Origin: Prevotella sp. | GTDB taxonomy: Bacteria; Bacteroidota; Bacteroidia; Bacteroidales; Bacteroidaceae | Assembly (NCBI GenBank): GCA_017619755.1 | Contig: JAFZRU010000057.1 | Span: forward strand, 1-64,000 | DNA length: 64,000 bases | Direction: 5' to 3' | In this document: positions 40,467 to 41,684 of the stretch, in pieces | How the letters are laid out: each line of letters opens with the position of its first letter | How positions within the stretch are numbered: the stretch's first letter is position 1 | The notes under the pieces: generated by a model | The model's database searches: none | What the model saw: only the letters and a program-made list of their open reading frames with translations | Told to the model about the DNA's origin: nothing | Translations under genes and position numbers: made by a program

Positions 40467-40931
40467 TCAATACTTGTATCTGAGCAGTCGCTCCTCTGCC
40501 ATGCGCTCGTAGCGTGTGCCAGGACGTCCGTAATTGGCGTAGGGGTGGATGCTGATGCCACCGCGTGGCATGAAGATACCTGTCACCTCGATGTATCGCG
40601 GGTCCATGAGCTTGATGAGGTCCTTCATGATGGTGTTCACGCAGTCCTCGTGGAAGTCGCCGTGGTTGCGGAAACTGAAGAGGTAAAGCTTGAGGCTCTT
40701 GCTCTCCACCATGCGTTTGTCGGGAATGTAGCTGATGATGATTTCGGCGAAGTCCGGCTGGCCGGTGATGGGGCAGAGCGAAGTGAACTCCGGGCAGTTG
40801 AAGCGCACCCAGTAGTCGTTCTCCTGATGGCGGTTCTCAAAGGTTTCCAGCACCTCTGGGGCGTAGTTTTGGGCGTAATTGGTCTCAGCGCCGAGCAATT
40901 TCAGCCCCTCTTCTTTTCTCTTTTCGGTCAT
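40467..40931 (-). CDS. queF: preQ0 reductase (7-cyano-7-deazaguanine reductase)
   Basis: Reduces preQ0 to preQ1 with NADPH in queuosine synthesis. The 154-residue, monodomain QueF shows [17 protein letters not shown] with the thioimide-forming C53 and D60, [20 protein letters not shown] with the signature substrate/NADPH residues. It starts 6 bp after the yhhQ-type gene, with which it shares a leader containing a candidate preQ1 riboswitch. Confidence 0.94.
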
Positions 40932-40937
40932 GGCGGA

Positions 40938-41627
40938 TTAGATGTTGAATATTTTCAAGATGTCGTAACTGATGCCTTCGTCATAGACGTCCTCCTGCTC
41001 GTGGTGCTTGACGAATGCCACCACGCGGATAGTGACGGGCAGCACCACCACCTCGTAGGCGGTTTTCAGCACCAACTGCCAGAGCATCATCCATGGCAGT
41101 TCATTTGTGGGGATGACGCCCAAGAAGGCCAAGGGGAAGAACACTAAGGAGTCGGCTCCCTCGCCCAATATGGTGCTGAGGATGGCTCTCAGTGAGAAAT
41201 GCTTGCCTTTCGACTGTAGCTTCATGCGGCTCATCACATAGGCGTTGATGAAACTGCCGGCGAGGAATGCTGCGAAAGAGGCAAAGACAATGCGAGGAGC
41301 CAGTCCGAAGATGGCATGGAAGCCTACATCGTTGTTCCAGTAAGGGGCGCCGGGTATGGCGTCGCACAATGCGCAGATGGCGACGAAGAAGAAATTCATC
41401 GCAAATCCCGTCCATATAAGCAGGCGCGCCTTGCGATATCCCCAAACTTCGCACACGCAGTCGTTGATGATGTAGGAAACGGGGAACACCAGCAAGCCGC
41501 CGGTGACACTCACCGACCCCAAGGCTATCTGCTTCGTTCCCAATAGGTTTGCCGCTATCAGGCAAACGGTGAAGAGCATGCTGAACAACAGGAACAGCAC
41601 ACTCACTTTAGAAGTGTTCTTTCTCAT
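40938..41627 (-). CDS. yhhQ: Queuosine-precursor (VUT/YhhQ-family) transporter
   Basis: A 229-residue inner-membrane protein with about six helices. ATG 41627 (RKNTSKVSVLFLLFSMLFTV) is chosen: it follows directly on the folded leader, and an in-frame extension to 41759 would run through it. ANLLGTKQIALGSVSVTGGL, VFPVSYIINDCVCEVWGY and ARLLIWTGFAMN are family hallmarks. E. coli YhhQ takes up preQ0 and preQ1; here the pairing with queF suggests preQ0/preQ1 import feeding QueF. First gene of a two-gene operon. Confidence 0.9.
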   Translation of the reverse strand: MRKNTSKVSVLFLLFSMLFTVCLIAANLLGTKQIALGSVSVTGGLLVFPVSYIINDCVCEVWGYRKARLLIWTGFAMNFFFVAICALCDAIPGAPYWNNDVGFHAIFGLAPRIVFASFAAFLAGSFINAYVMSRMKLQSKGKHFSLRAILSTILGEGADSLVFFPLAFLGVIPTNELPWMMLWQLVLKTAYEVVVLPVTIRVVAFVKHHEQEDVYDEGISYDILKIFNI

Positions 41628-41630
41628 TTT

Positions 41631-41660
41631 CTTGTTTTTTAAGAGGTTTCCAAGCACTCT
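41631..41660 (-). promoter_or_regulatory. Candidate preQ1-I riboswitch aptamer
   Basis: Read on the minus strand (41660 to 41631) the leader can form an H-type pseudoknot: P1 AGAG (41660-41657) with CUCU (41645-41642); P2 CUUG (41654-41651) with CAAG (41634-41631); a free C at 41646 directly before the P1 3' strand, where preQ1-I aptamers pair with the ligand; a U right after the P1 5' strand; and an A-rich loop UUAAAAAA (41641 and 41640-41635 region) between P1 and P2. The P2 3' strand ends 3 nt before the yhhQ ATG, so ligand binding would block initiation. Fold found by eye; no covariance test. Confidence 0.65.
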
Positions 41661-41675
41661 GATTATAAATCGGCT

Positions 41676-41684
41676 GCAAAGGTA
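41676..41684 (-). promoter_or_regulatory. -7 promoter box for yhhQ-queF
   Basis: TACCTTTGC on the minus strand; the predicted transcript starts ~10 nt before the riboswitch-like fold and ~45 nt before the ATG, so the leader is little more than the aptamer. Confidence 0.6.

Follow-up and report, generated by a model that had tools for sequence, protein, structure and literature searches.

A candidate preQ1-I riboswitch at the yhhQ start codon of a Prevotella genome, and tandem copies of its aptamer in relatives

The short leader in front of a yhhQ gene in Prevotella sp. raises the question of whether it is a preQ1-I riboswitch, and of how such a riboswitch would act at a start codon that has no Shine-Dalgarno (SD) sequence. 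The whole stretch of DNA that was analysed (64 kb) is called the window here. The element, AGAG-UG-CUUG-GAAAC-CUCU-UAAAAAA-CAAG (30 nt), lies on the minus strand at 41660-41631, directly upstream of the yhhQ start, and all features that follow are on the same strand. The P1 5′ strand AGAG (41657..41660) pairs with 41645-41642, which is the P1 3′ strand CUCU (41642..41645), assigned from the sequence and from P1 covariation; the P2 5′ strand CUUG (41651..41654) pairs with 41634-41631. Loop L1 is UG (41655..41656), and its U after P1 is invariant in the alignment of relatives called A1 below. L2 is GAAAC (41646..41650), which ends in an A and the presumed ligand-pairing C (41646). The A-rich L3, UAAAAAA (41635..41641), occupies -8 to -14 from the ATG, contains As that are invariant in A1, and aligns with UAAAAAAC of the RF00522 consensus. 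The P2 3′ strand CAAG (41631..41634) covers -4 to -7, the place of an SD sequence, yet it is not one; it is followed by AAA and then by the yhhQ ATG at 41627-41625. An earlier sequence-only reading had proposed an H-type pseudoknot before this ATG, with a P1 of 4 bp, an L1 of 2 nt and a P2 3′ strand ending 3 nt before the start codon, and the lengths and coordinates agree with it.

The two genes downstream are both queuosine-related, as that reading had also held, and both exceed the cut-offs of their protein models. The first, yhhQ (40938..41627, 229 aa), belongs to the preQ0/preQ1 transporter family (TIGR00697, 114 bits against a cut-off of 51, E 6.8e-33). The second, queF (40467..40931, 154 aa), encodes the preQ0 reductase that makes preQ1 (TIGR03139 QueF-II, 178 bits against a cut-off of 87, E 4e-53), and 6 nt separate the two genes. 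Elsewhere in the same genome, queC and tgt are present. Upstream of the element, TACCUUUG (41684-41677) is a probable -7 promoter box of the TAnnTTTG type, which we take to be a Bacteroidetes promoter element, and judging from the sequence the leader transcript would probably begin a few bases downstream of it. This assignment is based on the sequence and on the recurrence of the box in relatives: of the 91 related matches (defined below), 70 have a TAnnTTTG box no more than 80 nt upstream, compared to an average of 4.5 and at most 11 in single-base shuffles. A longer yhhQ frame of 273 aa from an upstream TTG was rejected because the TTG is upstream of the promoter box and the frame would read through the aptamer.

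YhhQ was matched in 35 of the 60 genomes searched for orthologues, and leaders were taken from the best 30 loci. A covariance model was built from leaders, with the P2 pairing not included. On the window's own genome the model gave one strong site (E 2.2e-9, the next at E 1.04), and there was no significant model match near that genome's own queC. The scan of the order at E 0.05 returned 79 rows from 72 of 393 genomes. All but seven of these rows (E 0.017-0.046) were examined; of the 72, 65 are non-training, and 62 of those are located upstream of yhhQ (49), queC (12) or queD (1). Three order-level matches (L099, L103 and L104, E 0.006-0.013) were counted as misses, since by eye they lie inside other coding sequence with no queuosine gene downstream. 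Removing a weak second match in L057 (E 0.66) left 94 of the 95 model matches, and removing the three misses left the 91 related matches, which include two copies from one leader (L006). At a loose limit of E 0.5, the genus scan had matches in 192 of 299 genomes. The phylum scan at E 0.01 had matches in 3 of 345: the window's own genome, another genome from its family, and a genome from a different family of the class (E 0.0097). Thus, the model finds little outside the order, where it may miss diverged relatives. The aptamer lies 3-6 nt before queC in L061, L065, L068, L069, L073, L076 and L092 and 4 nt before queD in L090, so it marks a small queuosine regulon in those genomes.

The position of the element relative to the start codon is conserved. 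In 85 of the 91 matches, the P2 3′ strand is followed by the ATG at a distance of 2-7 nt; the strand is CAAG in 82 of the 91. GGAG, GAGG, AGGA and AAGG are all absent within 20 nt in 76 of the 85 leaders, and neither GGAG nor GAGG is found in any of them. Bacteroidetes mRNAs are described as lacking SD sequences, with As at -3, -6, -12 and -13 aiding initiation in Flavobacterium johnsoniae (PMC6847099, excerpt), and Bacteroidia ribosomes as not recognising SD sequences (PMC9976891, excerpt). In the window all four of these positions are A, with -6 in P2 and with -12 and -13 in L3; among the 85 leaders, A is found at -3 in 50, at -6 in 67, at -12 in 72 and at -13 in 70.

We infer the ligand, the direction of switching, the translational mechanism and the coupling to queF as follows. 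Free of ligand, the short leader would be nearly unstructured and its A-rich start region would be open. When preQ1 is plentiful, it would pair with C41646 and stack between P1 and P2, and the H-type pseudoknot would close. The closed P2 would then hold -4 to -7 while L3 docks -8 to -14 into P1, and the 30S subunit could not load at the ATG 3 nt away, which would lead to less YhhQ and, through the 6-nt gene gap, also to less QueF. What the closing of the pseudoknot by its ligand would hide is the A-rich start context and not an SD sequence, which is absent in the window.

An alternative is that the preQ1-I aptamer acts mainly on transcription or on RNA stability, for example through Rho access, and not on translation initiation. 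Some members do need another platform: in 5 of the 12 queC cases (L050, L056, L082, L086 and L093) the ATG is found 69-169 nt downstream of the aptamer, so start masking cannot be the whole story there, which suggests a different expression platform in these five leaders. In addition, only the last copy touches the ATG in the tandem arrays described below. However, the 3 nt between P2 and the ATG in the window leave no room for a terminator hairpin, and the equally close ATG of the 85 leaders also argues against this alternative, which we consider unlikely.

A preQ1-I (type II-like) translational OFF riboswitch in the yhhQ-queF leader is very probably what the window element is, to judge from sequence comparisons. 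In Rfam scans, the lowest-E family at the site was PreQ1 (RF00522), with a score of 15.8 bits against a gathering cut-off of 39, a cut-off that is an annotation threshold and not a feature of the RNA. At the gathering threshold Rfam reported nothing in the window, and in 20 aptamer-bearing loci it reported no PreQ1, only tRNA, SRP and 5S. PreQ1 exceeded its cut-off in none of 149 genomes of the order, in a scan that used fast filters and scored no more than 38 candidates per genome, so that matches can be lost. The family was also found below the cut-off in relatives (12.5 bits in L152; 25.8 bits, E 0.0008, in L015). The preQ1-II and preQ1-III models were not found at the site up to E 10. Other families that overlap the site (snoZ196, isrC, Rp_sR47, SBRMV1 pseudoknot, mir-71 and 7SK) were dismissed as chance, with E 0.74-9.9 and out of place. 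The type II features found in the window are the H-type pseudoknot, the AC before the P1 3′ strand, the U after P1, the A-rich L3 and the queuosine genes downstream; the AC is the stated mark of type II, with the C as the specificity base (PMC11625349, excerpt).

How new is such an element in this phylum? Reports of preQ1-I from Bacteroidota are traced in a review (PMC11625349, excerpt) to work that is presumably McCown 2014. The sequence-only reading knew of no well-described preQ1-I riboswitch in Bacteroidetes; in this it was mistaken, since types I and II have been reported from Bacteroidota (PMC11625349, excerpt), and the window element thus adds to a known class. The use of yhhQ as a target of preQ1 riboswitches has also been published (PMC5372724 and PMC11625349, excerpts). 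A literature search on preQ1 riboswitches in Bacteroidetes and Prevotella gave no description of this leader group among the matches listed, and the excerpts of PMC11625349, PMC10043782, PMC3766115, PMC2258182, PMC6593275 and PMC10570037 do not describe it.

It is also conceivable that the conserved leader structure binds another ligand, such as preQ0, queuine or another deazapurine, or a protein, instead of preQ1. The 4-bp P1 departs from the Rfam consensus, and YhhQ-family transporters may differ in substrate (PMC5372724, excerpt). In contrast, the nucleotides linked to recognition are kept (the C before the P1 3′ strand, the A preceding it, the U after P1 and the As of L3), and the true matches examined all precede queuosine genes, so we regard a ligand other than preQ1 as quite improbable.

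We next turn to whether the fold could be due to chance. A descriptor with a 4-bp P1 and P2, a U after P1, an AC before the P1 3′ strand and an A-rich L3 matched a single place when both strands of the 64-kb window were scanned, whether or not one G-U pair was allowed. The strict form had no match in any of 40 dinucleotide shuffles of the window, and the form allowing one G-U had a mean of 0.1 and a maximum of 2; for the 200-nt stretch around the element, at least one match was obtained in 9 of 20,000 shuffles. Since the descriptor was composed after the element had been seen, the independent test is covariation. Folding of the window leader without the pseudoknot was weak (-4.7 kcal/mol, z 0.74); since the fold is a pseudoknot, no signal is obtained by single-strand folding.

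In alignment A1 there are 22 aptamers, which come from 20 of the 30 orthologue loci (three of them from L006). Ten loci were omitted: five with long L2 inserts, L013 and L018 with weak aptamers, L019 and L025 with none, and L010 as a near-copy. Standard pairs made up 91.4% of A1 compared to 79.9% when shuffled, and double-change cells numbered 24 compared to 5.9. The covariation score was 0.336 compared to 0.104 in shuffles, none of 500 of which scored as high, and the best slid version reached 0.163. Two A1 statistics were not significant: the number of pairs with a double change (4) was reached in 39 of 500 shuffles, and that of further pair types (9) in 435 of 500. P1 takes the forms AGAG/CUCU, CGAG/CUCG, CGUG/CACG, GGGG/CCCC and others in A1, and P2 is CUUG/CAAG or CUAG/CUAG; CUAG/CUAG occurs in L014 and L028, and AUUG/CAAU in L095. 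The U after P1 (T9), A27-A30 of L3 and the C before the P1 3′ strand are invariant, and the A preceding that C is nearly so. A wider alignment of the 95 model matches, of which 90 are distinct and a few are false or weak, gave a covariation score of 0.284 compared to 0.059 in shuffles (none of 500 as high) and double changes at 5 pairs, a count reached by 2 of 500 shuffles. P2 is absent from the model behind this alignment, so its pairs there are not forced. At one pair of P1 we found C-G, A-U, G-C and U-A, and at another U-A, A-U and G-C, and most of P2 hardly varies. Both helices thus covary in relatives, which also retain the C, the U and the A-rich loop, so that neither outcome named by the sequence-only reading as refuting it was seen; together with the descriptor and the queuosine-gene context, these results bear out the pseudoknot and argue for the preQ1-I assignment that the sequence-only reading had made. 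That the fold arose by chance, or that an A-rich start region with no regulatory role is shared by descent, is already disfavoured and very improbable: L3 and the P2 3′ strand do overlap an A-rich start context, which is favoured in Bacteroidetes in any case (PMC6847099, excerpt), and single-sequence folding is not significant, but both helices covary, the P1 and P2 letters differ between copies within one array (L152, below), and three different queuosine genes lie downstream.

The preQ1-I pseudoknot also varies in its loops and is lost in places. A pattern for the GGGG-type aptamer, scanned over 70 loci (L001-L030 and L105-L144), found 10 inserts of 15-26 nt in L2. All 10 contain a hairpin, two of them weak (-0.6 and -1.2 kcal/mol), and their summed energy was -52.0 compared to -21.6 in single-base shuffles, with none of 500 as low. 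These loci (L016, L021-L024, L127 and L129-L132) belong to one Prevotella clade, with stem letters that differ, and the L2-hairpin label needs 3 changes on a quick YhhQ tree compared to 9.7 in shuffles. L125, L126 and L128, which carried the label "single" in the YhhQ tree, carry their hairpin insert not in L2 but in L3, where it separates the P1 3′ strand from the A-rich stretch; L098 has a long L3. Of the 30 orthologue leaders, two (L019 and L025) lack an aptamer altogether; P2 is lost in L018 and reduced to 3 bp in L013. By eye, yhhQ in L019 and L025 follows close behind an upstream frame that resembles a calcium/sodium antiporter.

The window carries a single copy of the aptamer and is not tandem; in some relatives, the aptamer is repeated. 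A tandem pattern scan of named genomes, covering AGAG-, CGAG- and CGUG-like copies only, returned 13 contigs, of which two from the same bin, L146 and L155, are probably one locus, leaving 12 arrays. These arrays are present in the deposited sequences: 7 in Bacteroidales, where NCBI also places Segatella, and 5 in records titled Mailhella or Desulfovibrionaceae. Triplets are found in Segatella baroniae DSM 16972 (L145), Prevotella illustrans A2931 (L153), an uncultured Bacteroidales bin (L152) and Candidatus Minthosoma equi (L154, where the P1 of the middle copy has 3 bp). Doublets are found in L148, L149, L150, L151, L155/L146, L156 and L157, and in L147 the second copy is interrupted by the contig end. 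The genus scan gave adjacent matches in at least 3 of 299 genomes (G012, G553 and G684, which correspond to L153, L157 and L145). The spacing between complete copies is 0-18 nt, which leaves no room for one terminator per copy. In L152 the copies abut with 0-nt linkers; their P1s are, in order, CGAG/CUCG, CGUG/CACG and CGAG/CUCG, and their P2s CCUG/CAGG, CUUG/CAAG and CUUG/CAAG. The differing letters suggest, at the level of sequence, that each L152 copy is maintained by selection.

Of the 13 contigs, 10 have YhhQ next to the array, and the other 3 end before it would be reached. On the YhhQ tree the tandem label needs 6 changes compared to 9.7 in shuffles, at least 3 of them on well-supported branches. 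The Mailhella YhhQ proteins are 59-60% identical to that of the window; two Bacteroidales bins have 49%, and many others are higher than Mailhella. Horizontal transfer of yhhQ with its doublet to Mailhella was considered and is not claimed here, the tree having no outgroup and the records being metagenome bins. The Mailhella and Desulfovibrionaceae leaders (L146, L147, L149, L151 and L156) have an AGGAGG 46-48 nt upstream of the first copy, with a possible upstream reading frame, and where readable they have no SD sequence at the yhhQ start itself.

A 2022 survey of RefSeq 80 and environmental data placed preQ1-I among the classes not found in tandem (PMC9481103, excerpt). Our literature search on tandem preQ1 aptamers led, among the matches listed, to a paper on two ligands in one pocket and to no array. 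We tentatively propose, with slightly less than even confidence, that in Bacteroidales, and in Desulfovibrionaceae records with a similar YhhQ gene, preQ1-I pseudoknots serve as SD-free locks on the start site that have been multiplied in several lineages into contiguous doublets and triplets, maybe stacked end to end, that would give a steeper, cooperative response and would be the first tandem preQ1-I riboswitches.

The window element alone is a modest addition, and the main interest lies in tandem arrays and an SD-free platform occurring in the same family. A Bacteroidales-wide set of probable preQ1 riboswitches below the Rfam cut-off is missed by annotation that relies on that cut-off. The family also offers a natural test of a translational riboswitch where ribosomes ignore SD sequences, and tandem arrays of preQ1-I, one of the smallest aptamer classes, allow a direct test of whether adjoining pseudoknots exert cooperative control. 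Salvage and sharing of queuosine precursors are thought to be important in the gut community (PMC6593275 and PMC10570037, excerpts).

Among known systems, the window element was compared with the three types of preQ1-I and with tandem riboswitches of other classes. Like preQ1-I type II (RF00522) of Bacillus subtilis and Thermoanaerobacter tengcongensis, it has an H-type P1/P2 pseudoknot, an A and the specificity C before the P1 3′ strand, an A-rich L3 and queuosine genes downstream. A U after the P1 5′ strand is a feature of the preQ1-I class. Unlike type II, the window P1 has 4 bp and its score is below the Rfam cut-off, 76 of the 85 leaders have no SD-like 4-mer, one clade carries a hairpin in L2, and some relatives carry tandem copies. 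With type III of Escherichia coli it shares the AC before the P1 3′ strand and, if the mechanism proposed here is right, translational control of the same transporter family (PMC11625349, excerpt). However, type III buries an AAGG SD sequence in P2 and is described as almost confined to Pseudomonadota, whereas in the window the P2 3′ strand is CAAG followed by AAA, and AAGG is absent. Type I has the same overall pseudoknot, and there the formation of the pseudoknot is described as more important than SD burial (PMC11625349, excerpt); it differs in having UC before the P1 3′ strand and two bound preQ1 (same excerpt), where the window has AC. In carrying doublets or triplets of one aptamer per leader, L145, L152, L153 and L154 resemble the tandem glycine, c-di-GMP-I, SAM-I, FMN and other riboswitches.
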